Source: Lachnospiraceae bacterium P6A3
GTDB taxonomy: Bacteria; Bacillota; Clostridia; Lachnospirales; Lachnospiraceae
Length of the DNA stretch: 64,000 bases
Reading direction: 5' to 3'
NCBI GenBank assembly: GCA_000702085.1
Contig: JNKP01000001.1
Location: forward strand, 248,001 to 312,000
The first letter of the stretch is position 1. Each line of letters begins with the position of its first letter. The notes below the pieces were generated by a model. That model was not told the origin of the DNA and did no database searches. It was given only the letters and a program-made list of their open reading frames with translations. Position numbers and translations under genes: made by a program. Of this stretch, positions 5,583 to 54,707 are shown piece by piece.

Positions 5583-5650
5583 TTATTCTTTTTATTCTCC
5601 CCTATTTTTATAAAAAAGCCTAAATCCTAATTATTGTAACACATGGTATA

Positions 5651-5685
5651 TAAAAAAAGAACCTTACGGCAAAGCGTAAGGTTCC
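5651..5685 (-). terminator. Rho-independent terminator after the sugar-binding lipoprotein
   Basis: GAACCTTACG (5659-5668) pairs with CGTAAGGTTC (5675-5684) around a six-base loop. Seven A residues (5652-5658) give the U-run on the minus strand, so this ends the chemoreceptor/binding-protein operon. Confidence 0.9.
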
Positions 5686-5751
5686 CTGTTAACGGTATTT
5701 CAATTTTCCGGTTCTATCACGGAAATATCCGCACGAGCATATTATGGTCCG

Positions 5752-40040: not shown

Positions 40041-40041
40041 C

Positions 40042-41154
40042 TTATTTTCCCTTTAAAAATGCAAAGCTGATTACGCATCCCGCAAGGCTTATGAGTAAAA
40101 CAATGATACCGGGGACGGGCATATCGGTCTTCTGCTCCGTAACAATATCATCTACGGACATAGCTTCGTGGGATCTGATTTCCTCAACTATGGATGAAAC
40201 GGTATCATCCTCGCTCTGCACATAAAATTCTCCGCCGGTAACTTCAACGGCATCTCGGAGTTCCTGTTCAAATCCCGCATAGTCGTCGTCATTGTAGTAG
40301 TAATAATGAGCATCTTCGGAGGGGAATATCGCAAATACGGTGACCTCGTTTTTCTTGCAAAGCTCGACCGCTTCTCCCAGATCCGGCATTTCTTTTACGA
40401 AAGCACTGTCCGCATTATCGGTTGCGAAAATAATGACTCTTGTTCTGGAAGAATCCCCGATGGAAGGAAAACTGTAGAGGCAAGATCCCAGTCCCTCACC
40501 TATAAGCGAGCTTCCTCTGTAACTGTTGTTGACAAGAGTTCCGGCTTCTATGTAACCGAGTCTTGCCGTCAGATCGTAATACTTGTCCCAATCCTCATCG
40601 TTATCGAAGCTTATATAATCATCTTCTCCGACCAGGTCATAGTATTCTTTTTGCAGAGTGAAATATTCCTTGAGCTCTTCCAGTCTCATGACCACATAAT
40701 CATAGTCATCGGTCATGGGAACAAATACCACGGATGAAGTATTGAATATCGTAATACCGAATCTGTCTCCTTTAAGCTCGGTTACAACCTGCTCGAGATA
40801 ATCGGTAAGTTCGTAATTGAGTTCATAGAGAGAGTACGATACGTCCATGCACAGGAATATATCTCTCTTCTGCACTCCGGTCTTTATTGTCTGGACTTTA
40901 TAAGGCCTGGAGATAAGGAAAAGGGAAGCGATGATGGCAGCTATGATAAATACCTCATTAACAAGTGCCAGGATCCTGCTGCGGACATAAATCTTACGGT
41001 AGATGGGAAGAGATTTGACAAGGGATGCTGCGCCTGTCCTTATTCCGCCCATGTAGTCGTCTTTTCCGCGGGAGGGAATGACATGAAGAATAACCACTGC
41101 CAGAATAAGCAGCGGTATCCCTATCTTAATGACATTAGGATACATTAACTCCAT
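40042..41154 (-). CDS. batA: vWA membrane protein (BatA-like)
   Basis: About 370 residues, starting MELMYPNVIKIG at 41154; an in-frame ATG five codons earlier (41169) is possible. TM helices lie at about 10-27 and 52-72, with a C-terminal anchor in the last 20 residues. The MIDAS reads FLCMDVSYSLYEL (DxSxS, with Tyr between the serines), then GITIFNTSSVVFVPM and VIIFATDNADSAF. It pairs with the BatB-like protein downstream. Confidence 0.87.
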   Translation of the reverse strand: MELMYPNVIKIGIPLLILAVVILHVIPSRGKDDYMGGIRTGAASLVKSLPIYRKIYVRSRILALVNEVFIIAAIIASLFLISRPYKVQTIKTGVQKRDIFLCMDVSYSLYELNYELTDYLEQVVTELKGDRFGITIFNTSSVVFVPMTDDYDYVVMRLEELKEYFTLQKEYYDLVGEDDYISFDNDEDWDKYYDLTARLGYIEAGTLVNNSYRGSSLIGEGLGSCLYSFPSIGDSSRTRVIIFATDNADSAFVKEMPDLGEAVELCKKNEVTVFAIFPSEDAHYYYYNDDDYAGFEQELRDAVEVTGGEFYVQSEDDTVSSIVEEIRSHEAMSVDDIVTEQKTDMPVPGIIVLLISLAGCVISFAFLKGK

Positions 41155-41618
41155 GTTTTCACCATCCATTTAGCTTTATCGGAATCGAACTTAAAATCCG
41201 CCTGTGACTTAAGCGCAAATTCGGGAGCATAACAGTTTTCAATAAGTCCCGCCAAAGATCCGAGCCCCATATTCTTAAGCTCGGTAAGAGTAAGTGAGGT
41301 AAAATTCCTTCCGGTCATTTCGGAAACAAAAGACCTCATGATCATACTGAGTCTTTGATAGCTTTCTCTTGTATCAATGTTGGAATGCGAAAGATCAAAT
41401 GCGACTTTGTCTATAGAGATCAGGGCCTTTTGCCTGATATAGAATGACTCGGGTCTGCTTACGGGTTTTTCAGCCTTTTGTCTGGGCTTTTTGGGTGCCT
41501 TCTTGAAAACGCAGATAACCGTAAACAAGCCTGCAGCGACCAGGAGTACAACGACTCCCAGGATCAGCCACGCAACGCTCATCATAAGTTCTGGCTGTAA
41601 ATCAACCGAAAATTCCAC
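41145..41618 (-). CDS. Small single-pass protein of the Bat operon (DUF4381-like)
   Basis: The start is a GTG at 41618 with GAGGGG five bases upstream; longer frames lie inside DUF58. 157 residues: one TM helix (about 15-37), a basic linker (KKAPKKPRQKAEKP) and a helical cytoplasmic domain with SNIDTRESYQRLSMIMRSFVSEMTGRNFTSLT. This resembles the DUF4381 component found between DUF58 and vWA genes. It overlaps DUF58 by 17 bases and BatA by about 10. Confidence 0.75.
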   Translation of the reverse strand: MEFSVDLQPELMMSVAWLILGVVVLLVAAGLFTVICVFKKAPKKPRQKAEKPVSRPESFYIRQKALISIDKVAFDLSHSNIDTRESYQRLSMIMRSFVSEMTGRNFTSLTLTELKNMGLGSLAGLIENCYAPEFALKSQADFKFDSDKAKWMVKTWS

Positions 41619-42486
41619 TGTGTCCCCTCTCAAACATATTGAGCACCATATCAACGACACCGGGTGCGGTTTGGATTCTTTCCATAACAACACGGTTTCT
41701 CAGTGCATCAACCTTAAAACGATTAATAATATTATTTCTTTCGGCTTCCTCTGCTTTTTGGAGCGAGCGGCTTCCCGCGAGGAATCTGTCGACATAGCTC
41801 TCACCGATCCTGTCATATACTCTTCTGCCGGTGGCTGTCGCATCATCTATGCAGATGAAATAAACATCATTTCTCTCAGTCATTCTGGAAAGAGTCTCGT
41901 TTGTCACCGACTTAAGACCGAGCAGATCGGTTATTACAAAAATGATCATGCGGCGCATGGGAAACGAACGAAGAACATTCATGATAAGAGTGTTCATGTC
42001 GGACGGTGAATCTTCAAGGATCGTCGATCCGTATGTGCGAAGAAGTTCTTCGACACATATTCCTCCGGATTTAAACGGGGTATTTATCATTCCGCTTTTT
42101 CCGGAACAGGCAAAGCCCACATCGGCTCCCTGTCTTCCGAGAAGATAGCCGATGACGCCCATTGACATCAGTGCGATATCCGCCTTGTAATCTCCTGTCG
42201 GAGTATCGGCATCCATTTTAATGCCGGTATCTCCAAGGATCAGCACGCTGTGTTTTTTTTCTGCAATATATCTTCTGACCAGCAGTCTGTCGGTTCTGGA
42301 AGAGGATTTCCAGTCGATTGAGGTGATATCGTCTCCCTGGGAATATTCCTTGATATCGTGAAATTCAAGGCTCTTCCCGAGGTAAACCGAATTATACCCC
42401 CCGTCAAGTATATTGGTAGTCTTGCGAGAGGTATAAAGCACTGCGTCTTTACTTATCCTGGCCAGATATTCGTAATCAAGTTCCAT
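41602..42486 (-). CDS. DUF58-domain protein
   Basis: 294 residues without the usual N-terminal TM pair. The DUF58 core reads KSLEFHDIKEYSQGDDITSIDWKSSSRTDRLLVRRYIAEK. A vWA-like fold follows with degenerate MIDAS (LILGDTGIKMD) and IFVITDLLGL. DUF58 proteins lie directly after MoxR ATPases and are thought to be their partners. The gap to MoxR is one base. Confidence 0.9.
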   Translation of the reverse strand: MELDYEYLARISKDAVLYTSRKTTNILDGGYNSVYLGKSLEFHDIKEYSQGDDITSIDWKSSSRTDRLLVRRYIAEKKHSVLILGDTGIKMDADTPTGDYKADIALMSMGVIGYLLGRQGADVGFACSGKSGMINTPFKSGGICVEELLRTYGSTILEDSPSDMNTLIMNVLRSFPMRRMIIFVITDLLGLKSVTNETLSRMTERNDVYFICIDDATATGRRVYDRIGESYVDRFLAGSRSLQKAEEAERNNIINRFKVDALRNRVVMERIQTAPGVVDMVLNMFERGHSGIFG

Positions 42487-42487
42487 A

Positions 42488-43489
42488 TCAGGGTGTCTTT
42501 AATGTTGCTGTAATAGCATCAATGATGTTTTCCACGTTAACTCTGTCTGCGACTGCGGAATAGTTGAGTGCTACACGGTGACGAAGAACAAGATGAGCCA
42601 TCTGCTTGACATCATCGGGTACAACATAGGTTCTTCCGTTAAGAAGTGCGGTTGCCTTGGCGGTACGCATAAATGCGATTGATGCTCTGGGGCTCGCTCC
42701 CATTTTTACATATGAAGCCATCTGAGGTCCGAGAAGTCTCTGGGGATCTCTGGTTGCGGTAACGATGGCGGAAATATACCACTTAATGCTCTCGTCCACG
42801 TAAACCTTCTCAGTGATCTCCTGAAGCTTATCCACGTCCTTGATGGTCATTACGGGAGGCTTCTTCTCAAAAGCGTGATTCTCGATTCTGTTAAGAACCT
42901 CGACTTCCTCTGCCGCGATAGGATAAGAGATAACCTCTTTGATCATGAATCTGTCGGTCTGTGCTTCGGAAAGAGGATATGTTCCTTCCTGCTCGATAGG
43001 GTTCTGTGTAGCGATTACTATGAAGACATCCTCGGGCATGTTGTAAGACTTGGTACCGATTGTAACCTGATGCTCCTGCATGGCTTCAAGCATTGCAGAC
43101 TGAGTCTTTGCCGAAGATCTGTTGACCTCGTCCAGAAGTACGAAATTGGCAAAAACAGGTCCGAAGACAGTATCGAATGTGGATGTCTGTCTGTTATAGA
43201 TCTGTGTTCCGATAATATCGCTGGGAAGAAGGTCGGGAGTGCACTGGATTCTCGAAAATTTTCCGTCCACCGCTTCTGAAATAGCCTTTGCGGCCGTGGT
43301 CTTTGCAAGACCGGGAACGGATTCGATAAGAATATGGCCGTCAGCTAAAATGGCCGTAAGAAGTGATGTCTCGAGGCTTTTCTGTCCTACAACCACGCTT
43401 TCGAAATAACCGGAAAGTTTGGCAATCATATCGCGGCTGTACTGAAACTCTTCCTGAGTCACCTTGGACTGATTTGTATCGTAAGGCAT
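42488..43489 (-). CDS. MoxR-family AAA+ ATPase
   Basis: 333 residues. Walker A is ESVPGLAKTTAAK (56-68), Walker B is FVLLDEVNR, and sensor 1 lies in FIVIATQNPIEQEGTYPL. The C-terminal lid has GASPRASIAFMRTAKATALLNGR. MoxR ATPases act as chaperones that activate vWA proteins. First gene of a six-gene coupled operon: MoxR, DUF58, small membrane protein, BatA, BatB, TPR. Confidence 0.94.
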   Translation of the reverse strand: MPYDTNQSKVTQEEFQYSRDMIAKLSGYFESVVVGQKSLETSLLTAILADGHILIESVPGLAKTTAAKAISEAVDGKFSRIQCTPDLLPSDIIGTQIYNRQTSTFDTVFGPVFANFVLLDEVNRSSAKTQSAMLEAMQEHQVTIGTKSYNMPEDVFIVIATQNPIEQEGTYPLSEAQTDRFMIKEVISYPIAAEEVEVLNRIENHAFEKKPPVMTIKDVDKLQEITEKVYVDESIKWYISAIVTATRDPQRLLGPQMASYVKMGASPRASIAFMRTAKATALLNGRTYVVPDDVKQMAHLVLRHRVALNYSAVADRVNVENIIDAITATLKTP

Positions 43490-43634: not shown

Positions 43635-44300
43635 TCAGAACTCCTTTTTCTGCATTATCCTGATGCTGCACACCATTGAAACGGATAAAATCACCACACT
43701 GAGTGCATATAGTACAAAGATCACGGTCAGCGGAGCTATTCCGGCAGCTTTAGCGGCAAGGGCTTCAAAATCAACCCCCAAAGCATTGCTTAAATATTCC
43801 GCCGCTCCCTTTCCGGCAATCAGGATAAGGATTATGATTCCGCATATAACGAAAAGCACGATCTTGCTTTTCTCCGAAGAATATTTAAATTCCATCGGTA
43901 CCATGACAGACAGGATCAGGAAAAAAATGGGAAGGATCATGAAATCTTCCATGAACAACTCGGAGGGAGTAAAGGGCGTCTTCTGGATGAAAAGCGAGAT
44001 AAACTGCATAACCACTGCAAATGCCCAGGTTAAGAAAAGTCCCGTCACTGCGAATATGTATTTGGCAACGGCATATTCTCCGGGGCGGACGGGCATGGTC
44101 ATAAGAAATCCCATTCCGTTCTCGTGATTGTCATATGAGATGGTCGAAATGATCAGCATCAGTCCGATCATCGGAAAATAAGACACTATAAAACTCGTGT
44201 CCATAGCATAACTGAGCATGATCGACACAAAAAAGTACAGGATAAGAAGCTTTTTTTGTACCATTATGACTCTGAAATCTTTTACCAATAAACCTTTCAT
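43635..44300 (-). CDS. ABC-2-type permease subunit
   Basis: 221 residues with six membrane helices. The DHENGMGFLMTMPVRPGEYAVAKY loop after the second helix is characteristic of ABC2_membrane_5 permeases of GntR(YtrA)-controlled transporters. It follows the ATPase gene with a four-base overlap. Substrate is unknown; relatives act in cell-envelope stress or peptide resistance. Confidence 0.85.
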   Translation of the reverse strand: MKGLLVKDFRVIMVQKKLLILYFFVSIMLSYAMDTSFIVSYFPMIGLMLIISTISYDNHENGMGFLMTMPVRPGEYAVAKYIFAVTGLFLTWAFAVVMQFISLFIQKTPFTPSELFMEDFMILPIFFLILSVMVPMEFKYSSEKSKIVLFVICGIIILILIAGKGAAEYLSNALGVDFEALAAKAAGIAPLTVIFVLYALSVVILSVSMVCSIRIMQKKEF

Positions 44301-45148
44301 TTATTATTTCCTCCCAGCATCAGGACGATAATGTCGTCAATATGAGCATTCTCAACAACAGCCTTCGGATAGTTCTCCGCATAGAACTGCTTCTCCGAAG
44401 TAAGGCAGGTATAGCTGTAGCTGTCTTTTTGCGAAGCGATGATGTATTTCTTATCGAGAGATTCGTAGTCATCTTCTCCGACTTTGACAAGACCGTACTT
44501 TCCCAGAAGCACATCCGTATCTTCGTGGAGTATTATCCTGCCGTTATCGATCATGTAAATATCATCGCAAAGCCCTTCGAGGTCGGATGAAATGTGGGAA
44601 CTGATGATAACGCTTCTTGTCTGGTCTTCTCCCAGATAGTCCCTGATCATCTGAAGAACATCATTTCTTGCAATAACATCCAGTCCGGCAGTAGGCTCAT
44701 CCAGTATCAGGATCGAAGCTTTGTGACTCATTGCGGTAAGGACTCTCAGTTTTGCTTTCATGCCGCTTGAGAAATCCTTTAGAGGCTTGTCCAAAGGAAG
44801 ACTCTGGGCCTTACACTTATCCTTAAAATCAGTCTCATCAAAGTCCTCGTAAAAGCTTCCAAGAATACTGATGACATCTTTAACGGTAAGGACCGAGCAA
44901 AAGCCGGTATCGGAAAGAGCTACACCGATTTTCTTTTTATCCTCTCCGGTAAAATCACCGGGATTTTTTCCGAATACTTCTATCTCTCCTCCGTCGGTCC
45001 TTATAAGACCGAGGATTGCTTTTATCGTGGTGGTCTTGCCGGCTCCGTTTTTACCGATTATTCCGGTAACCCTTCCCTCCGGCACTTCCATTGAAACGTC
45101 TAATTTAAAATCCTTATAATCTTTTTGAAGATTCTTTAATCTGATCAT
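44297..45148 (-). CDS. ABC transporter ATPase (YtrB-like)
   Basis: The start at 45148 (MIRLKNLQKDYKDF) has AAGGTGA upstream; longer frames overlap the regulator. 283 residues: Walker A GKNGAGKTTT, Q-loop, signature FSSGMKAKL, Walker B ILILDEPTAGLD and switch ISSHISSDLE. The C-terminal ~60 residues are an accessory domain. It pairs with the permease downstream and the GntR regulator upstream. Confidence 0.92.
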   Translation of the reverse strand: MIRLKNLQKDYKDFKLDVSMEVPEGRVTGIIGKNGAGKTTTIKAILGLIRTDGGEIEVFGKNPGDFTGEDKKKIGVALSDTGFCSVLTVKDVISILGSFYEDFDETDFKDKCKAQSLPLDKPLKDFSSGMKAKLRVLTAMSHKASILILDEPTAGLDVIARNDVLQMIRDYLGEDQTRSVIISSHISSDLEGLCDDIYMIDNGRIILHEDTDVLLGKYGLVKVGEDDYESLDKKYIIASQKDSYSYTCLTSEKQFYAENYPKAVVENAHIDDIIVLMLGGNNK

Positions 45149-45191
45149 TATGATCACCTTTCTGCCATACGGCATCAGCTTTAAAATATGG

Positions 45192-45569
45192 TCACTGAGG
45201 ATCTTCAAGTATGATCTCGATCATTTCCCTGATCTCATCATCGGAAAGACCTACGGATCTTGCTTTACTTACGGAAGCGGCAAAATCGTCCTCAACAGCT
45301 TTCTTTCTGGCCTCGATTGCAAGCTGCCTGTCGGTTTCCGCCACATAGCTTCCTTTTCCGTGGACCGTTACAGTGAACCCTTCCTCTTCAAGTTTGTCAT
45401 ATGCCTTCTTGACTGTCAGGGCACTGATCTTTAATTCTCCGGCAAGGTTTCTTACCGAGGGGAGCGCTTCCCCCTCCTTAAGACTGCCGTCTATGATCTC
45501 CTGCTTGATCTGATCCATGAGCTGCTCGTAAACAGGGACCATTGAAGTGTTGTTAATGATGATCTTCAT
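45192..45569 (-). CDS. GntR-family regulator, YtrA subgroup
   Basis: 125 residues. The winged helix-turn-helix reads PVYEQLMDQIKQEIIDGSLKEGEALPSVRNLA...ISALTVKKAYDKLEEEGF. The short C-terminal helical domain of about 45 residues is diagnostic of YtrA regulators, which repress their own ABC-transporter operon. A palindromic operator sits just upstream. Confidence 0.92.
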   Translation of the reverse strand: MKIIINNTSMVPVYEQLMDQIKQEIIDGSLKEGEALPSVRNLAGELKISALTVKKAYDKLEEEGFTVTVHGKGSYVAETDRQLAIEARKKAVEDDFAASVSKARSVGLSDDEIREMIEIILEDPQ

Positions 45570-45589
45570 TATATTTCTCCTTCACAATA

Positions 45590-45626
45590 AACAGTGTATA
45601 ACAGTTTATAACTGTTGTCAACTGTT
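45590..45626. promoter_or_regulatory. Palindromic operator for the YtrA-type regulator
   Basis: AACAGTTTATAACTGTT (from 45600) is a near-perfect palindrome, flanked by further AACAGT (45590) and AACTGTT (45620) half-sites. Thus four half-sites lie within 37 bases, 21 bases upstream of the regulator start. YtrA regulators bind such tandem dyads; autoregulation is inferred. Confidence 0.7.
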
Positions 45627-45642
45627 ATATGGTGTTTATTTG

Positions 45643-45686
45643 CAAAAAAAAATGACACCGGAGTGGCTATGTAACTCCGGTGTCAT
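45643..45686 (-). terminator. Rho-independent terminator after the TetR operon
   Basis: ATGACACCGGAGT (45652-45664) pairs with ACTCCGGTGTCAT (45674-45686), and an A-run at 45644-45652 supplies the minus-strand U-run. Confidence 0.92.
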
Positions 45687-45695
45687 GTATCGGAT

Positions 45696-46289
45696 CTATT
45701 TGGTTTTTATGCCGAGTTTACCAAGGAGCAGTTCTCCCATGTTGTACATCATCTTGTACGCCTTATCCTTGGATAATTTGTTTTTATCGGTCATCATCAT
45801 AATCGCAAGACCGTGGGTATAGATTACCGTATCCCTTACGGCTTCTCCCAAAAGTTTCGGAGAAACATCGTATTCTTTTGACAGAAGATCGAATGCATGC
45901 CTGTCAAATTGAAATTCAAATATACTCCTGCCCTCATAGGGATCTTCTCCGATTGTTTCCATGGGATCGTCCACACATAAAAATCTGAATACGTGGGGAT
46001 GATCGCATGCAGCTGACAGATAGATCTTGCCGGAAATAAAGAAGGCTTCAATCGCGCCTTTACCTTTCATTGCTTCTTCCATGGGACCGAAAAGCTTGTT
46101 TCCGGCATATGCCATAAGTTCCTTCTTCAGATCCGTCATGCTGCCGAATTGCCAGGAAACAGGCTGGGTTGAACAACCGAGTGATGCGGCTATGGGCTTG
46201 ATACCCACAGCACCTATTCCCGATTTATCCAGAAGCTCATATGCCGCTTCCAATATCATCTCTCTTGTAATTTGAGTTTTTCTTCCCAT
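45696..46289 (-). CDS. TetR/AcrR-family regulator
   Basis: 197 residues. The N-terminal HTH reads TREMILEAAYELLDKSGIGAVGIKPIAASLGCSTQPVSWQFGSMTDLKKEL. The recognition helix is atypical: 'CSTQPVSWQFGSM' instead of '..ALYHHF..'. It is the third gene of an operon with two flavoproteins and probably represses the shared promoter at about 47.5 kb, where two overlapping palindromes overlap the -10 box. The ligand is unknown. Confidence 0.88.
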   Translation of the reverse strand: MGRKTQITREMILEAAYELLDKSGIGAVGIKPIAASLGCSTQPVSWQFGSMTDLKKELMAYAGNKLFGPMEEAMKGKGAIEAFFISGKIYLSAACDHPHVFRFLCVDDPMETIGEDPYEGRSIFEFQFDRHAFDLLSKEYDVSPKLLGEAVRDTVIYTHGLAIMMMTDKNKLSKDKAYKMMYNMGELLLGKLGIKTK

Positions 46290-46300
46290 GTATTAAATCC

Positions 46301-46951
46301 TTAAGCATAAGGTTTGTAATCAAGAGGCTCCTTGCATCCGAGACTCTCTCCGTCTCTGATGAAGCTTTTTCTGACCACAGTCTTAAAAAAGAAACCGACT
46401 AAAACTCTCACGGGTGTGGGGAAAATCTCGGGACCGGTAAACGCCTTGCACTTATCGGAATTAAAATTCCCGCATGAAGCGAATTCTCTTCCCATCTCGG
46501 CGTACGGGCTCGTTGCCTTAACCCTGTTCTCGTCATTTAAAAATCTTATCTCAAAATTACCGCCCTTGCAAAGAGTTCCTCCGTATTCACATCCGAGGTA
46601 CCCTGCAAGTTTTTCAAGATAAGCCTCGCCGCATCTTAGCTGCACCCCTTCCGCAAATCCGCTCTGGAGTATGAAAGACATCTTTGCGTTACCTGTTTTG
46701 GGAGTTAAGGTTTCCAGAAATTCCATCAGAAGTCCGGGAATGCATTCCACATAAAGAGGAATTGCAATCAGTATATTATCGCTTTCATCATAGGACTTTC
46801 GTATCGCATCCCATGAAGCTTTATCCGATATCTCATATCTGTCGCAGGTATTGCCTCCCTCGCACATACCCTTTGTAAATTCATCAAGTATTTTATCCGT
46901 ATTACTGAACTTCTTGATTCTGGGGCTTCCGTTTATTATCAGTGCATGCAT
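46301..46951 (-). CDS. Flavodoxin-fold NAD(P)H-dependent oxidoreductase
   Basis: 216 residues. The flavodoxin-like start ALIINGSPRIKKFSNTDKIL binds FMN phosphate, and NILIAIPLYVECIPGLLMEFLE is the second family motif. Later cysteines (RCGEAYLEK, GCEYGGTLCKG) may be structural. It overlaps the upstream gene by 13 bases. It probably acts as a cytoplasmic FMN reductase for quinones, nitro-compounds or similar; substrate unknown. Confidence 0.8.
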   Translation of the reverse strand: MHALIINGSPRIKKFSNTDKILDEFTKGMCEGGNTCDRYEISDKASWDAIRKSYDESDNILIAIPLYVECIPGLLMEFLETLTPKTGNAKMSFILQSGFAEGVQLRCGEAYLEKLAGYLGCEYGGTLCKGGNFEIRFLNDENRVKATSPYAEMGREFASCGNFNSDKCKAFTGPEIFPTPVRVLVGFFFKTVVRKSFIRDGESLGCKEPLDYKPYA

Positions 46952-47445
46952 GATACCGCCTCCTTTATCTCTTTTTCATCGAATACTCCCAGTGATTTGC
47001 TCTCAAGATTGAGGGCTGCTCTCTCCACCCATCTTTCCAGATATTCTTTGTCGGCATCCCCCTTGATGATCAATCCCACATCGGCATTCTTTCCGTATCT
47101 GGAGATATGATTCATCTGTCCTTTATAAAAATGGAGATTCATGGTCAGGATAGGAAGTATTCTGTCAAAAACGTTCTTTCCTTTATGGTCGATATAACCC
47201 AGCGCAGTATCAGATATTACCCAGTACTGATCCGCATGAATAAGTTTCTTCAAGATAATCTCATAATCATCTTTGATGGAACATTCACCGGGTGTTTTGA
47301 GCCAGCAATAATTACATCCGATGCAATGACCGATATTGAGAGAGCCCGCTTCGACGATATCAATTTCTGTATTTGACGATTCAGCCTGTTTACGTAATCC
47401 TTCGGTGATCGAAGTATCCGAAGTCGTATTGACTATAAGGATCAT
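46939..47445 (-). CDS. FMN-dependent reductase with CxxCxxC motif
   Basis: 168 residues with a flavodoxin-like fold. GHCIGCNYCWLKTPGECSIKDD provides C41-C44-C47 and C55, the pattern of iron-sulfur flavoproteins and related NADPH-dependent FMN reductases. YWVISDTALGYIDHKGKNVFDR replaces the usual 'SPVYFGxxSxxxKxxxDR' loop. First gene of the TetR operon, with GGAGGAA before the ATG. Cluster binding would require anaerobic conditions; the exact cofactor is uncertain. Confidence 0.8.
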   Translation of the reverse strand: MILIVNTTSDTSITEGLRKQAESSNTEIDIVEAGSLNIGHCIGCNYCWLKTPGECSIKDDYEIILKKLIHADQYWVISDTALGYIDHKGKNVFDRILPILTMNLHFYKGQMNHISRYGKNADVGLIIKGDADKEYLERWVERAALNLESKSLGVFDEKEIKEAVSCMH

Positions 47446-47474
47446 GATATTCCTCCTACGATTAAATGAAATAA

Positions 47475-47504
47475 TATAAACCCGTTTATATAAACACGTT
47501 TATA
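47475..47504. promoter_or_regulatory. Two overlapping palindromic operators for the TetR regulator
   Basis: TATAAACCCGTTTATA (47475-47490) and TATAAACACGTTTATA (47489-47504) are consecutive 16-bp dyads offset by 14 bp and sharing TA. The second overlaps the -10 box. Dimer pairs of a TetR protein would occlude the promoter. Confidence 0.8.
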
Positions 47505-47530
47505 TTATTCCGATTTTATGTATATGTCAA
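47502..47530 (-). promoter_or_regulatory. Sigma-A promoter of the flavoprotein/TetR operon
   Basis: On the minus strand a perfect TTGACA (47530-47525) is followed by a 17-base spacer and TAATAT (47507-47502). The start codon of the first gene lies about 57 bases downstream. Confidence 0.8.
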
Positions 47531-47550
47531 TAGTAACCGTCCCACATATT

Positions 47551-47583
47551 CAAAAAAAATTTGGGACGCACCGGCGTCCCAAA
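47551..47583 (-). terminator. Rho-independent terminator after the PurA-like gene
   Basis: TTTGGGACGC (47560-47569) pairs with GCGTCCCAAA (47574-47583) around ACCG, with eight A residues at 47552-47559 giving the U-run. Confidence 0.92.
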
Positions 47584-47588
47584 ATCTT

Positions 47589-48788
47589 TCAGCTCTCACT
47601 TTGATACGAGTAATAAAAATGTCTAAACACATCGTTAAATTCGTGCCTTACGGGCAATTCATCCGCATCAATATCCCCATCTGCCATCTTCATCCTGTTA
47701 TCCGTTTCGTTCAGATGAGTAATGAAAAGTGATACTTTTAAATCCTTTAATCCGTTTTCTTCAAGGTCCTTTTTTACGGGAGCCAGAAACTCATAGGTGC
47801 TGCCGTGTCTTGCATATCTGATGCTGCCCTGCCATGGATTATCTTCATTGGTCATATCATGTTCGATATTTCCGAGTGCTTCTTTGTCACATTCGTAAGG
47901 AAGCGGACCGGCACCGTGCCTTGTTACATAGGATCTGGTTACATACACGGCCTCATGAAGCTTAAGACCTGCTTCACCCAGGATCGTAAGCGGATTATAA
48001 AGTCCGGTTCTTGATGCCGTTACGTGAGGAGAAAACGGCGATATCTCGGGATCCAGCAAAAGCCCCTGGCCCGATTCAAAAATAATATCGTCATAACCCA
48101 TGAAAAAGTCCCGGGTATCATCTGTGATCTTCACGTACTTAAGGGCGTTATTCTTCATTTCGGAGGCGGCATTTTCAATCACTGCAGGATCCTTAAGCAT
48201 ATCGATCATGCCGGAGATCTCTTCATTTTCGGTGCCGCCGATTTCTTTACGGATTTCTTCAAGTCTTGGGATGCAGTATTTTTTTCTGATATCAAGAATT
48301 GATTTAACTGTTGCGGTTATATCCTGCCGGATAATATTATCTACCGTAATCCCATATCCTGCCTTTGTTCTGAGGTCGCATTCATTTATGCCCATTCCGC
48401 AGCTTCCGTGCCTGCCCTCTCCCCGCATGGTCTCTGCGATCATGTTGATCAGGATATCATCGATTATAGTAACGCAGGTTTCCGGGTGGCAATAAATCTT
48501 CGGGCATCTTCCTCCCGCCCTTTTAAATTCCGTTACCTCTTCATCAAGTTTGTACAGATCCGGGTAGTAAGTCCGGGCCCAGTATGTATCCGCATTACGA
48601 AAAGAGCCCGCCGACAACTGATGAAAAACAAACCTTTTTCCGTTTGTTTCAACAGTATGTCCCGCCTGGGCTCCACCGTTATGCTTTATTACAAGGGGAT
48701 TTCCGGACTTGCTGCAGAAAACATCCGTAGCAAGTCCCTTTCCCTCATCTCCGAATCCTTTTCCTATCACCGCCCGGATCTTTGGCAT
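47589..48788 (-). CDS. Divergent adenylosuccinate-synthetase-family (PurA-like) ligase
   Basis: PurA enzymes join aspartate to a purine nucleotide using GTP. The core motifs are kept: GFGDEGKG (11-18, catalytic D14), HNGGAQAGHTVE (catalytic H44), the GQGLLLDPE region, VTASRTGLYN and YVTRHGAGPLP. Deviations from normal PurA are clear: GKGFGDEGKGLATD replaces xQWGDEGKGKIVD, GAQAGHT replaces xHNAGHT, and the chain is about 30 residues shorter (399). D14 argues against a PurZ-type phage enzyme. It is the last gene of an operon with a vWA protein (two bases upstream) and a pseudokinase-like protein, so it is more likely a specialised paralog than the housekeeping purA. Confidence 0.82.
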   Translation of the reverse strand: MPKIRAVIGKGFGDEGKGLATDVFCSKSGNPLVIKHNGGAQAGHTVETNGKRFVFHQLSAGSFRNADTYWARTYYPDLYKLDEEVTEFKRAGGRCPKIYCHPETCVTIIDDILINMIAETMRGEGRHGSCGMGINECDLRTKAGYGITVDNIIRQDITATVKSILDIRKKYCIPRLEEIRKEIGGTENEEISGMIDMLKDPAVIENAASEMKNNALKYVKITDDTRDFFMGYDDIIFESGQGLLLDPEISPFSPHVTASRTGLYNPLTILGEAGLKLHEAVYVTRSYVTRHGAGPLPYECDKEALGNIEHDMTNEDNPWQGSIRYARHGSTYEFLAPVKKDLEENGLKDLKVSLFITHLNETDNRMKMADGDIDADELPVRHEFNDVFRHFYYSYQSES

Positions 48789-48790
48789 AT

Positions 48791-49693
48791 TTAAAAGAAA
48801 AGTCCTTTCTTTTTGGTTTTGACAGTAAGTTCACTGAGAGCTCTCTTAACTACGGGAAGCTTTGCATCAGGCCACTGTTTAAGAGTATCCTCAAGTGACA
48901 TTCCCTCATTCATCTGAATGGTGCTGATAACTATCTCGGGAATGCAATCGATCTCATCGGTTCTGATAACCATAGTGTGTCCGGGAAGAAAACTTACAAT
49001 GTTTTTGGCCTTTTTAAAATCGTTGTCAAGGAAGAGATGGAAAAGATTAAACTTCTCCTCGGCACCCTTTACAATATCTCCGACTTTAAGGTCCACTTTC
49101 TCGCCGAATACTCTTTCATACAAAACGGGAAGGTTGCCGGGCTCTCCTTCTTTTCTGCAATCCGCAGAATCACCGATTGTGAAAATATACCCTTTCTTCT
49201 TTCTCTTTTCATAACTGTCAAGAGTTGTATGCTTAGCGGCAAAATACCAGAGAAGGTTGGGAACAACTCTTCCGCTGCCCGCATTTTCCAGCCACAGATC
49301 AAGGAGCTGCTCGGCAATTCTGATGTCGGATTCAAACTGGGTTACCTGAAGAGGTGATATGTCATCAACATCTCCGTACGCCGCAAACATCAGAGCGGGG
49401 TCTTTGACCGCATTGGTGGAATACAGCTTCATCATGGTCTCATTAAGAGATTCCTGTGCAACCATCTTTGCGAGATATCCCATTGAACCGGTGACATCAA
49501 GGCCGAGGATAATGGGTAATGATTCGGGATGATCTTCGGAGTCTCTTGCTTCTCTTGTCTGAATAAACCTGGGATCGAATCTCTGATCGCAGGAAGTGCT
49601 CTTGAAAATCTCCGTTTCGCTTGCCGCCTGTGCGATATTTCTGCTGTTTCTGAGTTTGTTCCAATCAGCTGCGGTATAACTTCCTCTGCCCAT
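48791..49693 (-). CDS. von Willebrand A domain protein (soluble, MGRGSYTAADW family)
   Basis: 300 residues without a signal or TM helix. The N-terminus MGRGSYTAADWNKLRNSRNI is a conserved module in this vWA family. The vWA MIDAS is LDVTGSMG (D66, S70), with AAYGDVDD and TIGDSADC as later metal-site regions. The 'WYFAAKHTTLDSYEKRKKKGYIFTIGDS' stretch matches TerY-like vWA proteins. The start has a perfect AAGGAGG. It is flanked by the pseudokinase-like protein and the PurA-like ligase in one operon, suggesting a complex. Function unknown. Confidence 0.85.
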   Translation of the reverse strand: MGRGSYTAADWNKLRNSRNIAQAASETEIFKSTSCDQRFDPRFIQTREARDSEDHPESLPIILGLDVTGSMGYLAKMVAQESLNETMMKLYSTNAVKDPALMFAAYGDVDDISPLQVTQFESDIRIAEQLLDLWLENAGSGRVVPNLLWYFAAKHTTLDSYEKRKKKGYIFTIGDSADCRKEGEPGNLPVLYERVFGEKVDLKVGDIVKGAEEKFNLFHLFLDNDFKKAKNIVSFLPGHTMVIRTDEIDCIPEIVISTIQMNEGMSLEDTLKQWPDAKLPVVKRALSELTVKTKKKGLFF

Positions 49694-49712
49694 CTTGTCC
49701 TCCTTAAATCAA

Positions 49713-50627
49713 TCAAAAATTCACATTCATCTGTGCAAAACGTCTTCCGCCGAACCCGTTCTCGATTACCTTGTCCCATTTTTCAAAATCCGCAAAAGCG
49801 TCGGGAGAAGGCTTCTCTTCCAGGAATTTTATCATTTCCTTCGGCACTTCATCTTTATGAATACCAAGGATCTTTACTGCCGTCTGTCTGAGTCCTTTAA
49901 GATCCGGATTACAGAAAGCCGTATTTCCGAAACCGCTCTTCGATGCAGTCCACCAATGTCCCATAAGCACCGCATGATGATTAAACGGGTTTATCCATAT
50001 GGTCTCTTCCGATATTCCTCCGTGTATCATATTGCTGTAATTCAAAACGCAGCAGATATTTTCCAGTCTTGAGATTATCCATGCCACATGCTCCGGCTTA
50101 AGGCTTCCGAACATGGGAAGAGGAAAGAGATTATCGGTCCTTGCGAAAGCAATCATTATTCCGCCGTCCTTCAGCTCGTAGGTGCCATTCGATCTCGGGA
50201 AGCACTCATTAAGCCCCTTAACATCCGCAGGCGGAAAAGAAAGCATACCGATTCCCGCAAGCATTCTGTCTGCCAAAGCACGTTCTCCCGCGCCGAAAAC
50301 ATAAAGAGCATTATTCTTGGTCAGGTATACTTTTGCTCCGCCGTCATCAAGCGAATACAGATATCTGACGGTGACGGTCTCGCCGTCAGCGGTTTCAAAC
50401 CGGGTTTCCTCGGCATTATCCCAGAGATAATCTTCAGTCTTCTTACCTTCGGCTTTTTCATCATGAATTCCGCGAAGATAATTCAGCATCTGTTTCCTGA
50501 ATTCTCTGTATCCGTAGAGCTCTTTGTCTTCAAAAAAAGACTTTCCGCCACAGTATTCGCAGACAAGCGCTCCGCTGCTGTCAACGGACATCTCACCGCC
50601 ACAGTTTTTGCATTTGAAACTGATCAT
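49713..50627 (-). CDS. Zinc-ribbon protein with degenerate protein-kinase-like domain
   Basis: The start at 50627 (MISFKCKNCGGEM) has GGAGG nine bases upstream. 304 residues. The N-terminal zinc ribbon has C6-x2-C9 and C23-x2-C26. The C-terminal part resembles a kinase C-lobe: LENICCVLNYSNMIHGGISEETIWINP keeps the spacing of 'HxDIxxxNI', but the catalytic Asp position is Gly (IHGG, 201-204), and the DFG-like position reads LMGHWW (221-226). It therefore looks like a pseudokinase; the similarity is by pattern only. First gene of the vWA/PurA-like operon. An adaptor or nucleotide-sensing role is conjecture. Confidence 0.68.
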   Translation of the reverse strand: MISFKCKNCGGEMSVDSSGALVCEYCGGKSFFEDKELYGYREFRKQMLNYLRGIHDEKAEGKKTEDYLWDNAEETRFETADGETVTVRYLYSLDDGGAKVYLTKNNALYVFGAGERALADRMLAGIGMLSFPPADVKGLNECFPRSNGTYELKDGGIMIAFARTDNLFPLPMFGSLKPEHVAWIISRLENICCVLNYSNMIHGGISEETIWINPFNHHAVLMGHWWTASKSGFGNTAFCNPDLKGLRQTAVKILGIHKDEVPKEMIKFLEEKPSPDAFADFEKWDKVIENGFGGRRFAQMNVNF

Positions 50628-50667
50628 GATATTATGCCTCCATACATAAAAGATTATATCATGATGA

Positions 50668-50697
50668 CAGGAGGGACGCTTCATTTTTGTCACCGGA
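50668..50697. repeat. Single arm of a REP-like GGGACGCTTC element
   Basis: GACAGGAGGGACGCTTCATT followed by TTTGTCACC closely matches the left arm of the palindrome at 20043-20073, but the second arm is missing. It lies between the pseudokinase start and the next terminator. Confidence 0.55.
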
Positions 50698-50700
50698 ACA

Positions 50701-50748
50701 ATAAAAAGGGTTCCTGCATTCCACGGGGTGACGTGGAACGCAGGAACC
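50701..50748 (-). terminator. Rho-independent terminator after the YD-repeat lipoprotein
   Basis: GGTTCCTGC.TTCCACG (from 50709) pairs with CGTGGAA.GCAGGAACC (to 50748), with AAAAA at 50703-50707 as the minus-strand U-run. Confidence 0.85.
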
Positions 50749-50763
50749 TCATCCGCTATCCGC

Positions 50764-51912
50764 TTAATAGACTATATATGCTCTTTCATCCAGCTTGCGG
50801 TCTTCTCTGTAATCAAGCTCTCTGCCCTTGTACTTGGCCGGATTAATATATACAAACTCCCAAACAGAGTAAGATGTAAGCCTGCCGGCCTGATAATGCT
50901 CGCACCTGACCTTATCCCCGTCCTCGTCGTAGAAATATACTGTCATGCACTCGGTGAGAACGGCATCAGAACCGTCTCCGTATGCTTGCTGAGAAATATA
51001 CTTTTCCGTGATTTCGGTTTTTTTGTATAGATAACCTTCATCCGCATATTCATATAAAATCTCGGTAGAATCCATGAAATCATAAATCTCATGGATCACA
51101 CGTCCTTCTTCATCGTAAACATATTCTTCATGGGACAGTAGCCTGTCATCGTCATAAGATACATATGTTGTCGTGCTGAGAAGATTACCGTTATCGTCAT
51201 AATCTTCTTCGGTCCGATACAGCTGTTCCCCGTCTTTGCCGATTTCAATAACCGTGCGGTGATTTCCGTCGGTCTCAATCACCATCTGCCTCGCAACGTA
51301 AGAAGTGCTGTCAGCAGCGTAAGAAGTGCCGTTAGCTTCGGTAATAATCCGGTTTATTGTATTCCCTTCGGAATCGATCGTATCTTCATATGAAAACTCT
51401 ATATTATCGTTTTCATCATAATCTTCTTCGTACCTTTTGCTCAGGTTTCCTTCGTCATCATATTCATATCTGATGATATAGTGGGAATACGAAAAAGATT
51501 CTTTGTATATAATATTTCCGTCTTTGTTGTATTCGCAGTATGTGTCTACATCGCCCTTGTAATTGTAAGTTGTTTCTTTAGTAAGATTTCCTTCTTCATC
51601 GAACTCTCTGTATGTCTGAAGCTTGTCTCCGCGTCCGTAAACGGATTCGTCCGCTATGATACCCGAACTGCTGTAAGTTCTTTCGGTTGTTTCATAGAGG
51701 TTTCCGCATGAATAGTAACACTCTTTGACAATATTCCCCGACTTGTCGAACTCATAATAATATTCACCGTAAGCACTCAGACCACCGTCGGAATAATACT
51801 GGAGAAATACGGAAGGCAATTTAACATCCCCTGCCGATGATCCGGAAGACCCGCAGGCGGTGAGACTTACCGTTAAAAGTGCCGTCATTAATGCAGATAT
51901 TATCTTTTTCAT
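50764..51912 (-). CDS. Lipoprotein with YD/RHS-like repeats
   Basis: 382 residues. The lipoprotein signal ends SLTAC with lipid C20, followed by a Ser/Gly linker. The rest is built of 20-25-residue repeats with a consensus like Y-x-(Y/F)-D-x-x-G-N-(L/I)-x-x-x: 'EFDEEGNLTKET', 'EYNKDGNIIYKES', 'EYDDEGNLSKRY', 'DYDDNGNLLSTT' and 'YFYDEDGDKVR', at least eight copies. This matches the YD repeats of RHS/teneurin barrels, here in a small surface-anchored form with no toxin domain. Function unknown; a carbohydrate or surface-binding role is possible. Confidence 0.8.
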   Translation of the reverse strand: MKKIISALMTALLTVSLTACGSSGSSAGDVKLPSVFLQYYSDGGLSAYGEYYYEFDKSGNIVKECYYSCGNLYETTERTYSSSGIIADESVYGRGDKLQTYREFDEEGNLTKETTYNYKGDVDTYCEYNKDGNIIYKESFSYSHYIIRYEYDDEGNLSKRYEEDYDENDNIEFSYEDTIDSEGNTINRIITEANGTSYAADSTSYVARQMVIETDGNHRTVIEIGKDGEQLYRTEEDYDDNGNLLSTTTYVSYDDDRLLSHEEYVYDEEGRVIHEIYDFMDSTEILYEYADEGYLYKKTEITEKYISQQAYGDGSDAVLTECMTVYFYDEDGDKVRCEHYQAGRLTSYSVWEFVYINPAKYKGRELDYREDRKLDERAYIVY

Positions 51913-52060
51913 AATTCACCCCTTTTAAAACCATAACAGCCTGTACATCTGTATAGACGGAATATTTGTCCGAAGGGTCACAGTAAAAAGCCATGTCAAA
52001 GACGGACTTCGGGGCTGCAGCCACCTCCTGAAAGAACCGTCATCACAGGTCCCGCTGTCA

Positions 52061-52091
52061 TCAAAAAAGGACGACTCAAAAGAGCCGTCCC
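52061..52091 (-). terminator. Terminator after the glycosyltransferase gene
   Basis: GGACG-CTC (from 52069) pairs with GAG-CGTCC (to 52090) around AAAA, with an A-run at 52063-52068. Confidence 0.75.
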
Positions 52092-52098
52092 TCACGCC

Positions 52099-53127
52099 TT
52101 AGTTGAATTTGAAAATTTTCTGCGCTATCTTGTAGCACTCAACGGAGACCTTGCGTCCGCCCTTGCCGGGAAGATTCATGGCATTTCCGGGAAGACCGCC
52201 TCTTAAGTATGCCCACAGATGCTTATCTCGTCCCTTGATATATGTCCACAGCTTCTGCTTTTCCAGAAGACTGTCATCGGTATTTTTCTTGATGAGAAGT
52301 ATGGATGAGATCGTGGTGATGATCTCAAGATAATTTCTCATATATTTATATCTCTTCTTGTCCTTGAGAGCCCTTGCCTTGTTATCAACCAGATAGTCGA
52401 TCATCAGGTAATTAACCCTGAGCTGCTGATCGATCCTGGAGATCATGATTTCTTCGTTTACGGACTGGTCGTCGCGGCCGATGTAGTATCTGTAAAAATT
52501 AACATCCAGATAATACATCTTCTCAACATGAAGAAGAGGCTGATATACATAAAGATTATCCACATAGAAGGTGTGCTCCGGAAGCACCATTCCCGAGTCT
52601 CTGAGAATCTGGGTCCTGTATATTGCGGAGTGCATCAGGATATAATGACCCTTCGAAAAATGATGGCAATCACTCCATGTAAAGATCTGATCCTGGGGGA
52701 ACATTCTGCGGAAATGAATTACTTTCTTTCTCTTCTCTCCGTCCTTCTCATATACATAATTGCTGATGAGAAGGTCAAGCTTTTCTCCGCACATGACAAG
52801 CTCTTTGAGCTTTCCGAGTATCTTGGCATAGGCACTGTTTTTTACCCAGTCATCGGAATCCACGACCTTAAAAAAGAGTCCCGTCGCATTCTGTATTCCG
52901 GTATTGACCGCACCGCCATGTCCCTTGTTGGGCTGATCGATGGCACGGACTATTCCGGGGTACTTTGCCTCGTATTCCCTGGCTATTTCAAGTGTGTTGT
53001 CCTTGGTTGATCCGTCATTAACAACCAGGATCTCGACATCATCCCCGCCGGGCAAAAGCGACTCAATCGCTTTTCTCATATAAGCCGCAGAATTGTAGCA
53101 GGGAATGGTGATCGTTAAAAGCTTCAT
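52099..53127 (-). CDS. Family 2 glycosyltransferase
   Basis: About 342 residues from ATG 53127 (MKLLTITIPCYNSAAYM). A GTG six codons earlier (53145) with a slightly better ribosome site is an alternative. The GT-A domain shows TITIPCYNS, ILVVNDGSTKDNT, PNKGHGGAVNTG and the metal-binding VVDSDDWV. The C-terminal 130 residues are basic and helical. It transfers a sugar to an envelope or lipid-linked acceptor; donor and acceptor are not predictable. It stands as a single gene with its own terminator. Confidence 0.88.
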   Translation of the reverse strand: MKLLTITIPCYNSAAYMRKAIESLLPGGDDVEILVVNDGSTKDNTLEIAREYEAKYPGIVRAIDQPNKGHGGAVNTGIQNATGLFFKVVDSDDWVKNSAYAKILGKLKELVMCGEKLDLLISNYVYEKDGEKRKKVIHFRRMFPQDQIFTWSDCHHFSKGHYILMHSAIYRTQILRDSGMVLPEHTFYVDNLYVYQPLLHVEKMYYLDVNFYRYYIGRDDQSVNEEIMISRIDQQLRVNYLMIDYLVDNKARALKDKKRYKYMRNYLEIITTISSILLIKKNTDDSLLEKQKLWTYIKGRDKHLWAYLRGGLPGNAMNLPGKGGRKVSVECYKIAQKIFKFN

Positions 53128-53232
53128 AAATTCATCCCGGTCCACAAAAGGACCTTCTCCTTAGTATTGATCTTGCAACGATGATTTTAAATCTTTATCC
53201 GGTAAATGTACAGAAAAAGCGTCCCCGGAACG

Positions 53233-54144
53233 CTAACCGTCTGCCCCTAATTTCCCGCCTTTATAAGGAACTCTGGCGGAAGGCACTTCTTCTGATGCGG
53301 GATCGGTATGAACCGACTGATCGTCAAAGAAGATCTGTGCACCGAATGCCTTGAGGATTTCTTTTTTCTCGACTCCTCCGAGGAAAAATGCCTCGTCAAG
53401 TCTGACATTCCAGCTTCTGAGCGTTTTGATGACTCTTTCATGCGCAGGCGCGCTTCTGGCTGTAACAAGAGCGGTACGGATAGGGCATTCTTCACCGTAT
53501 TTATTACGGATCTGGGTAAGCTTCTTCAAAAAGCTTGCAAAGGGTCCTTCATTGAGAGGATTATCCGCATTGATCTCTTCGTTTTCTTCGAAGGCTTTAA
53601 GGCCCTTCTCTTTATAGATCACCTCGGATGCATCATCGAATAAAACCGCATCTCCGTCAAATGCGATCCTTATGGAACCGTCGGTCGCACCGGGATATGT
53701 ATGATCTGTAATGATCATGCCGGCTGCTATCCCGCTGTTTATCGCATTCTGGACATCATCCTCGTACGCCGAAAGGAACAGATCGGTTTTAAAGGCTTTC
53801 AGATACGGTGAAAGCGACGATCCGCTGACAAGCACGGCGCGGGTTATCTTAAGTCCGTAATGTTTGATGGAATTGAAAACCCTGAGAGATGTATTGGTGG
53901 AATTCCTCGACATGATGATAACCTCGACGAGGGGGTTATCGGGATCCCTGTCATTAAGTGAAAGAAGGCTCTTGATCAGTGAAAAACCGGGTCCGGGTTC
54001 AAGAATGTCTTTCTCGTGCTCGAACTGATATGACTGGTATGCATCAAGTCCTTCTTTTTCGAATATTTCGTTTTCTCTTGTAAGGTCAAAAAGAGCTCTC
54101 GATGAAACTCCTATGACCATTTTATCTTCAAGTGCGTATGCCAT
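53233..54144 (-). CDS. Cytosolic 5'-nucleotidase (NT5C1/SNT family)
   Basis: The start at 54144 (MAYALEDKMVIGVSSRALFD) has AAGGAGG four to five bases upstream. 303 residues. Family motifs: VIGVSSRALFDLTREN at the start, VEVIIMSRNSTNTSLRVFNSI, IAFDGDAVLFDDASE (nucleophile Asp), AFFLGGVEKKEIL and IFFDDQSVH. It dephosphorylates nucleoside monophosphates, as in pfam NT5C1 proteins. It follows the DUF1653 gene by 29 bases. Confidence 0.88.
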   Translation of the reverse strand: MAYALEDKMVIGVSSRALFDLTRENEIFEKEGLDAYQSYQFEHEKDILEPGPGFSLIKSLLSLNDRDPDNPLVEVIIMSRNSTNTSLRVFNSIKHYGLKITRAVLVSGSSLSPYLKAFKTDLFLSAYEDDVQNAINSGIAAGMIITDHTYPGATDGSIRIAFDGDAVLFDDASEVIYKEKGLKAFEENEEINADNPLNEGPFASFLKKLTQIRNKYGEECPIRTALVTARSAPAHERVIKTLRSWNVRLDEAFFLGGVEKKEILKAFGAQIFFDDQSVHTDPASEEVPSARVPYKGGKLGADG

Positions 54145-54173
54145 AAGCCCTCCTTGGGGCCGTACAGTGTTCG

Positions 54174-54707
54174 TCACTTTCTGAGTCGTTCACCTTCATA
54201 TTTACCGAGTATGAGAAGTGATTCTCGAAGAGACAGATACTTGGTACGTACATCTCCCTCGGGAAGCTCCACATCACATGCGGTAGCCATCGTGATAAGC
54301 ATTTCATCCGTAAGTCTGTGATTAAGAGATGCAAGTATATGGAGCCTGTCCGCGGAACTCTTCGCATCCAGGAAATCTTCAACTTCGGGATCCAGTCCCT
54401 CCGTTCCGGTTCTCTCAGCCGCCTTTGCGGGAGCTGCAGCCTGAGGCTGAGCGGGCTGAACGGTCTTATTACCCTGACCGGGTTCTACTTTTTCGAATCT
54501 CATATCCTGAACGGCATCGGGATATTTAACCTTATCCACGGGGGAGAGGAAATTGACCACGGGTCTGGCCCATACCTTGGACGGATCCTCTTCGGATCTG
54601 TAGATCACAAGTCCCTCTGAAGTTTCGGTATGCTGTGCTATGGTGACGATCCTGTACAAACCGCCTTTAAAATGTCTGTAAAGTTCTCCTTCAACGGGCT
54701 GAGCCAT
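54174..54707 (-). CDS. DUF1653-domain protein
   Basis: 177 residues. The N-terminal ~70 residues are a clear DUF1653 domain (GELYRHFKGGLYRIVTIAQHTETSEGLVIYRS...WARPVVNFL). A Pro/Ala/Gln-rich linker (about 80-105) leads to a helical C-terminal domain of 65 residues. DUF1653 often appears alone or next to nucleotide enzymes; its function is unknown. AAGGAG supports the ATG. It is first of a two-gene unit with the 5'-nucleotidase. Confidence 0.85.
   Translation of the reverse strand: MAQPVEGELYRHFKGGLYRIVTIAQHTETSEGLVIYRSEEDPSKVWARPVVNFLSPVDKVKYPDAVQDMRFEKVEPGQGNKTVQPAQPQAAAPAKAAERTGTEGLDPEVEDFLDAKSSADRLHILASLNHRLTDEMLITMATACDVELPEGDVRTKYLSLRESLLILGKYEGERLRK

Follow-up and report, generated by a model that had tools for sequence, protein, structure and literature searches.

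Conserved association of a PurA-like ligase, a vWA protein and a kinase-fold protein in Lachnospiraceae, other bacteria, plasmids and phages

In the TerY-P triad, as outlined in the portion of PMC11090510 that treats it, a von Willebrand factor type A (vWA) protein is associated with a PP2C phosphatase and a kinase carrying a C-terminal zinc ribbon. In mycobacteriophages of subcluster C1, three genes labelled 'kinase', 'HNH endonuclease' and 'PurA-like' are, according to the pertinent passages of PMC9476963, conserved in and unique to that subcluster. Here we analyse a gene trio that resembles both, located in a 64,000-nucleotide (nt) stretch of the 2.98 Mb genome of Lachnospiraceae bacterium P6A3 (hereafter, the window; G000:C1:248001-312000). 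The trio consists of three minus-strand open reading frames (ORFs) at 50627-47589, separated by gaps of 19 and 2 nt, as was stated in the original prediction, which was made from the sequence alone. The ORFs encode a zinc-ribbon pseudokinase (P0003, 50627-49713, 304 amino acids (aa), with a possible alternative in-frame GTG start at 50693), a vWA protein (P0002, 49693-48791, 300 aa), and a paralogue of adenylosuccinate synthetase, PurA (P0001, 48788-47589, 399 aa). To our mind, there is an even chance that this is a conserved enzyme-plus-adaptor module, in which a ligase with PurA-type chemistry is combined with a vWA protein acting as holder or regulator and with a pseudokinase-fold adaptor. 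Its probable role is to make or handle an unusual purine nucleotide.

As in TerY-P (PMC11090510, in the part concerned), the vWA gene adjoins one for a zinc-ribbon protein of the kinase fold, which speaks for a variant of that triad with the phosphatase replaced by the PurA-like ligase, and the vWA protein had originally been called TerY-like. Unlike in TerY-P, the ribbon is N-terminal, the kinase is mostly degenerate, most viral copies carry a J-domain instead of the ribbon, and the third gene encodes a PurA-like ligase; no PP2C gene was found among the 10 scanned neighbours in the window or recognised by eye among 18 recurrent neighbour families. By the available description of TerY-P, the label is unsupported, and a derivation from the triad appears extremely improbable.

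In the C1 mycobacteriophages, the three genes recur in unchanged order, a single small gene separating those for the vWA and PurA-like proteins; in Cane17, these are the kinase gp250, the vWA protein gp251, the small gene and the PurA-like gp253. However, the passages of PMC9476963 on these genes do not describe a module, the vWA gene is labelled hypothetical or HNH endonuclease, and the phage kinase differs in keeping the DFG aspartate and in its N-terminus, which carries the HPD motif. ARG-centred systems resemble some copies of the trio in combining an NrtR-like Nudix regulator with a vWA chaperone gene in one neighbourhood (PMC9503650, in part), but have an ADP-ribosylglycohydrolase core, and section 3.8 of that paper describes no PurA-like ligase. 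The MoxR-vWA systems differ in that no MoxR AAA+ gene is present among the 10 scanned neighbours of the trio (43638-54707); a MoxR-like gene, assigned by eye, lies farther downstream, at 42488-43489 (about 4 kb from the trio), and is found in four of six genus regions. Among the 12 to 20 top-ranked papers of each literature search, no description of a vWA-PurA module was found, a mention in the 2012 TerY paper being possible. In the annotated records that were opened, the products are entered as 'hypothetical protein', 'kinase' or 'adenylosuccinate synthetase'.

Conservation and distribution of the trio

Relatives of the vWA protein were detected in at least 444 bacterial stretches and 395 stretches of viral contigs, the latter by an alignment-based scan, single-sequence patterns of P0002 having been too strict to match anything there. 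Among GenBank phages, 206 records contain the vWA protein and 224 the PurA-like protein, and the vWA protein is also encoded in 21 plasmid records (Rhodococcus, Agrobacterium/Allorhizobium, Acetobacter, Tsukamurella and others). Closer to the window, matches occur in 15 of 97 genomes, namely the genome itself and 14 of 30 from the same genus, with none in the other 66. The class sample yields 8 of 391 and the order sample 17 of 392, own genome included, and in the phylum sample the window genome itself is the single match among 398.

Neighbourhoods were compared in the best 80 of the at least 444 bacterial loci and the best 80 of the 395 viral loci, fetched by vWA similarity with a profile (A1) itself seeded with vWA proteins adjoining PurA-like genes; the frequencies therefore describe close relatives, and several of the viral ones are near-duplicates. 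A PurA-like gene lies downstream of the vWA gene, in the same orientation, in 77 of the 80 bacterial and 76 of the 80 viral loci, as well as in 14 of 15 genus loci (window included) and 8 of 9 class loci, the genus, class and plasmid sets sharing organisms with the bacterial set. All four phage loci have it by construction because they were chosen by their PurA-like match. Among the misses, L039, L102 and L106 lack the gene within the stretch analysed, L126 extends only 2.0 kb downstream (L127 and L129, its near-duplicates, have the gene at 1.85 kb), and in L087, L098, L016, L191 and L177 the sequence ends within 1.5 kb. The kinase-like gene lies upstream in 72 of the 80 bacterial loci (71 of the 73 whose upstream sequence spans 900 nt or more) and in 40 of the 80 viral loci. 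When neighbours were clustered, no other family came near the frequency of the trio, the next being NAMPT-like, in 9 loci. Of the 21 plasmid records, five were opened; each of these loci has both the kinase-like and the vWA gene, four also have the PurA-like gene, and the Rhodovulum plasmid is without it in the stretch analysed.

The two core proteins also covary. Distance matrices of vWA and PurA-like proteins correlate at r=0.845 across 148 loci (0.663 for bacterial and 0.840 for viral loci), with none of 500 permutations reaching such values. Between the two genes, the median gap is -4 nt for bacteria (69 loci) and 25 nt for viruses (73 loci), and an exact 4-nt ORF overlap, reckoned from the first possible start codons, occurs in 38 of 77 bacterial loci; in many bacteria, the two genes are probably translationally coupled. 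With their order kept in phages, plasmids and bacteria, and with correlated distances, the three genes are confirmed as a real conserved unit, beyond chance, and the expectation that neighbourhoods would keep them together is borne out. The viral records represent real viruses, terminase (PF03237) having been detected in 17 of the 30 examined, with 16 of these matches over the cut-off. In all six regions compared from the genus of the window, the genes downstream of the trio are the same, and the upstream neighbours are common to four of the six. A prophage or mobile island at the window was rejected given the shared downstream neighbours.

The PurA-like ligase and its pocket

P0001 belongs to the PurA fold family (113 bits against PF00709), matching phrog_1211 better (1.2e-47), but falls far under the curated NCBIfam cut-offs for PurA (92.9 versus 402 bits for PRK01117.1 and 73.7 versus 395.55 for TIGR00184) and for PurZ, the phage 2-aminoadenylosuccinate synthase (38.6 versus 300 bits for NF038379). 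Residues were compared across 30 canonical PurA sequences, PurZ of phiVC8 and 126 PurA-like relatives (61 bacterial, 60 viral, 4 from phage isolates and the window protein); protein trees and residue tables were built from length-filtered sets, the tables also after dereplication at 70% identity. The catalytic Asp13, His41 and Lys16 of PurA are present in P0001, in agreement with the originally noted retention of D14 and H44. D13 and H41 are kept in 125 of the 126 relatives (one row is gapped), Q224 in all, R305 in 124, and T239 in 116, with serine in the other 10.

By contrast with PurA, V273 is replaced by histidine and T301 by glutamine in every one of the 126 relatives, N38 by glutamine in 121 (4 keep N), and T129 by cysteine in 111 (4 keep T), while arginine remains in only one relative at 143 and in 10 at 303. 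P0001 itself differs at six of the six positions N38, T129, R143, V273, T301 and R303 of the inosine monophosphate (IMP)/aspartate pocket, where it has Q, C, G, H, Q and S. The predicted alteration of the P-loop was overstated: the GDEGKG core is intact, and the altered residues, which do exist, are in the nucleotide/amino-acid pocket. The family resembles PurZ in being a phage paralogue of PurA with R303 replaced, but at positions 13, 273 and 301 the phiVC8 PurZ carries Ser, Val and Arg, and the PurA-like proteins carry Asp, His and Gln. The TRHG motif together with Q at 301 is a residue signature by which annotators can tell this family from PurA. Position 333 (D333) is mostly N in bacterial copies and D in viral ones.

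In PurA, R303 contacts the 2'-oxygen of IMP and aspartate, and in PurZ, a valine near C2' bears on the choice of sugar (both from the relevant portion of PMC8342488). Given these roles and the changes at R303 and V273, it is plausible that the P0001 family uses another sugar or amino-acid partner than PurA.

The shared superfamily (PF00709) and the retained D13, H41 and K16 would also fit a plain, feedback-insensitive PurA that boosts the supply of AMP, with the vWA and kinase-like genes merely incidental. This we consider highly unlikely: the residues for the phosphate and ribose of IMP and for aspartate are changed family-wide, the score of 92.9 bits is far under the PurA equivalog cut-off of 402, the pairing with vWA is near-invariable, and the host already has purA. 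Indeed, as had been proposed for checking, the genome encodes a second, canonical purA, one of only two PF00709 matches (G000:C2:420014-421270, full length, 544 bits), and P0001 is thereby ruled out as the only PurA. Six genomes of the genus without a vWA match (G003, G009, G011, G013, G014 and G018) have the same full-length PurA type as their sole PF00709 match.

This housekeeping PurA, the type present throughout the family, has peculiarities of its own. In all 24 copies (L001 and L261-L283; 541-553 bits), Q224 is replaced by Leu, the Arg of TRVG by Ala and K331 by Val, and six copies of 605-620 bits from the same order differ from this type at the three positions; two more ORF rows, gapped there, were set aside.

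In a tree with 31 canonical sequences, the PurA-like family is monophyletic (support 0.986). Within its virus-rich tree, 70 bacterial copies, the window protein and L108, a contig labelled as viral, group together in one clade (0.987), the bacterial sampling being narrow. L108, an IMG/VR contig of 150,486 bases, carries the zinc-ribbon form of the trio, and no terminase PF03237 was found in it. In L004-L007, the vWA protein is 86-93% identical to that of the window and the PurA-like protein only 59-76% (in L005, over a 190-residue fragment), so the ligase evolves or recombines faster.

The kinase-fold and vWA proteins

The AlphaFold2 model of P0003 (pLDDT 91.5) has the kinase fold over residues 72-304, which vindicates the fold that had been predicted. 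The zinc ribbon is N-terminal (Cys 6, 9, 23 and 26), and both catalytic aspartates are missing, with HGG in place of HxD (Gly) and MGHW in place of DFG (His); these motifs, like the CxxC pairs of the ribbon and DVTGSMG in the vWA protein, are all present as first noted. Among 78 kinase-like proteins, 50 have neither catalytic aspartate and 7 have both.

The N-terminus distinguishes two forms. In viral kinase-like proteins, the HPD motif of J-domains is found in 34 of 40, a ribbon in one and neither in five, whereas among the other proteins 91 of 96 have the ribbon, two HPD and three neither, some genomes being in two sets. The window protein is of the latter form, with the ribbon instead of HPD or a PF00226 match. 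Few proteins were examined against the Pfam DnaJ family (PF00226): L103 scores just under the cut-off (3.3e-6; 27.6 versus 27.8 bits), the Cane17 kinase gives a weak match (0.012) along with a kinase domain over its cut-off (36.6 bits), and L128 gives none up to E 1. By profile, a methionine-rich protein takes the place of the kinase-like one in 14 viral and 2 phage loci, and one was recognised by eye in L020. Examples of such a protein ahead of vWA in phages without the kinase-like gene are L018 4252-4965, L019 3717-4544 and L020 4495-5103; those of L018 and L019 have no Pfam match.

P0002 matches no vWA or Ter family in Pfam, NCBIfam or PADLOC, and its profile yields only insignificant matches against PDB chains; the vWA assignment comes from fold comparison, which succeeded where the Pfam and PDB profile searches gave nothing. 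The metal-site (MIDAS) residues D66, T68, S70 and D175 are in place and invariant. In Cane17, the vWA protein gp251 (L021 3906-5723) is interrupted at the conserved IFTIGD motif by an intein-like insert; 'intein-like' refers to border residues and a LAGxxDGEG-like stretch recognised by eye, with no Pfam match at 0.001. Some phage records label the vWA gene HNH endonuclease.

The combination of vWA with a J-domain or pseudokinase also raises the possibility of a protein-assembly or remodelling machine, in which these two would be chaperones and the PurA-like protein their NTPase rather than a metabolic enzyme. PurA has an NTP-using, P-loop-like fold. In other phage and bacterial systems, MoxR-vWA pairs act as chaperones, as set out in the portions of PMC7159879 and PMC7824862 that concern them. 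However, D13, H41 and Q224, the residues of purine-O6 chemistry, are kept and would be needless for an NTPase motor, and we find such a machine distinctly unlikely.

Neighbouring genes, proposed mechanism and local layout

An NrtR-type gene (Nudix plus winged helix) adjoins the module in all five plasmid loci opened. Against PF21906, those at L248 4148-4873 and L252 4101-5231 are over the cut-off and those at L250 8345-8992 and L251 8272-8904 under it, and in L249 a custom profile recovers broken pieces. In a Lachnospiraceae locus (L040), a Nudix gene at 5233-6123 directly follows the trio and matches the NrtR profile and a PHROG Nudix family. The Nudix boxes of these regulators are degenerate and a regular expression gave few matches; detection came from profiles and Pfam. 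Genes of the NAMPT family are present in 15 of 50 viral records (taken from the 80, mostly longer ones), and 7 of the 15 lie within 5 kb of vWA, against 1.04 expected by random placement. These neighbours hint at nicotinamide adenine dinucleotide (NAD) or ADP-ribose.

Further Nudix-containing proteins of 345-390 aa were seen by profile in the viral loci L113, L116, L150, L163, L173, L178 and L180, some with NAMPT genes close to the module, and L137 2396-3499 encodes an NMNAT-Nudix protein by Pfam. Six loci (L018 9384-10892 and five more; four viral, one phage and one bacterial) have near the module proteins that we take to be TROVE/Ro60-like.

It is reasonable to infer that the trio serves to make or sense a modified purine nucleotide. 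In the mechanism proposed here, vWA and the PurA-like ligase would be the core. By PurA-type chemistry, a nucleoside triphosphate (NTP) would most likely phosphorylate O6 of a 6-oxopurine nucleotide, after which an amine, aspartate or a relative, would displace the phosphate; the substrates are probably other than the usual pair of IMP and aspartate. The likeliest ligand of the vWA metal site is an acidic group or a peptide, and the protein would hold or regulate the enzyme or its target. A pseudokinase-fold adaptor would be the third member, its phage form recruiting Hsp70 through the J-domain and its bacterial form bringing another partner through the ribbon. We infer that the three proteins form a complex; their chemistry, substrate, product and physiological role are given here as predictions.

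Several observations weigh against the enzyme-plus-adaptor module. The kinase-like gene is absent from half of the viral loci and is therefore not essential, and some of the kinase-like proteins may be active, given the seven that keep both aspartates. A search of the 50 viral records, many of which are fragments, found no PurB-superfamily lyase (PF00206), so the second step that normally follows would either fall to a host enzyme or not take place. The links to NrtR and NAMPT are patchy and absent from the 10 scanned neighbours in the window, and the NAMPT proximity statistic ignores the relatedness of the viruses.

A more far-reaching version, which we put forward tentatively and consider rather doubtful, is a nucleotide-ligase machine common to large phages and bacteria. 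Here a rewired adenylosuccinate synthetase would make a novel N6-amino-acyl purine (deoxy)nucleotide or reverse the deamination of one, the metal-dependent vWA protein and the J-domain or zinc-ribbon pseudokinase would deliver it to a target (in phages, by way of Hsp70), and the product would serve as a signal or counter nucleotide- or NAD-based immunity. If the ligase does make or erase a non-standard purine nucleotide, this would be a new chemistry beside PurZ in phage nucleotide biology, in which pseudokinases and vWA proteins would gain a part. The isolated phages Cane17, Va1 and RHph_TM30 make the module testable.

RADAR, Cad1 and Kongming generate deaminated (inosine-type) purine nucleotides. 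The trio might specifically be a counter-measure or guard in NAD or nucleotide immunity, the ligase removing or converting deaminated or NAD-derived nucleotides and the chaperone parts aiding the target. Consistent with this are the carriage by phages (terminase in 17 of 30 records), the proximity of NAMPT, the NMNAT-Nudix and NrtR-type genes nearby, and the loss of R303, which recalls PurZ, a deoxynucleotide user (PMC8342488, in the portion cited). In Kongming, dITP is made from dAMP and NAD is then depleted, by the relevant parts of PMC12948488 and PMC12774641. However, the substrate role of inosine nucleotides would be a supposition, the viral records have no PF00206 lyase, the downstream neighbours are the same in all six genus regions, and no recurrent defence gene adjoins the bacterial copies. 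PADLOC matched 34 families among 100 of the 372 bacterial neighbour proteins, none in more than two proteins (the 100 had no control set), and in Pfam the same 100 belong mainly to general metabolism, transport and RNA modification (25 of 114 families seen). A guard or counter-measure thus seems unlikely, and the defence function suggested earlier finds no support for the bacterial copies; the earlier interpretation as a whole is partly supported. Location in a defence island was rejected on the same PADLOC result.

The trio looks like one transcription unit because terminator-like hairpins bracket it. One (50748-50709, minus strand, 17 pairs, tail CTTTTTATTG) closes the upstream gene and immediately precedes the trio, and the other (47583-47560, minus strand, 10 pairs, tail TTTTTTTTGA with eight T) directly follows the stop codon of the PurA-like gene. 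Stem length and position are the sole argument, with 4 such hairpins in the region versus 3.6 expected; promoters numbered 7 versus 6.6 expected, none distinguishable from chance.

About 2.6 kb upstream of the trio, a 5'-nucleotidase gene (53233-54177; PF06189, 440.8 bits) is present, as it is in four of the six genus regions. On the downstream side, a cluster for MoxR-like, DUF58-like and vWA-type membrane proteins (39039-43489; L197 40-4490; families assigned by eye) comes to within about 4 kb of the trio; it is absent in L194 and L195 and found in the other four of the six genus regions.

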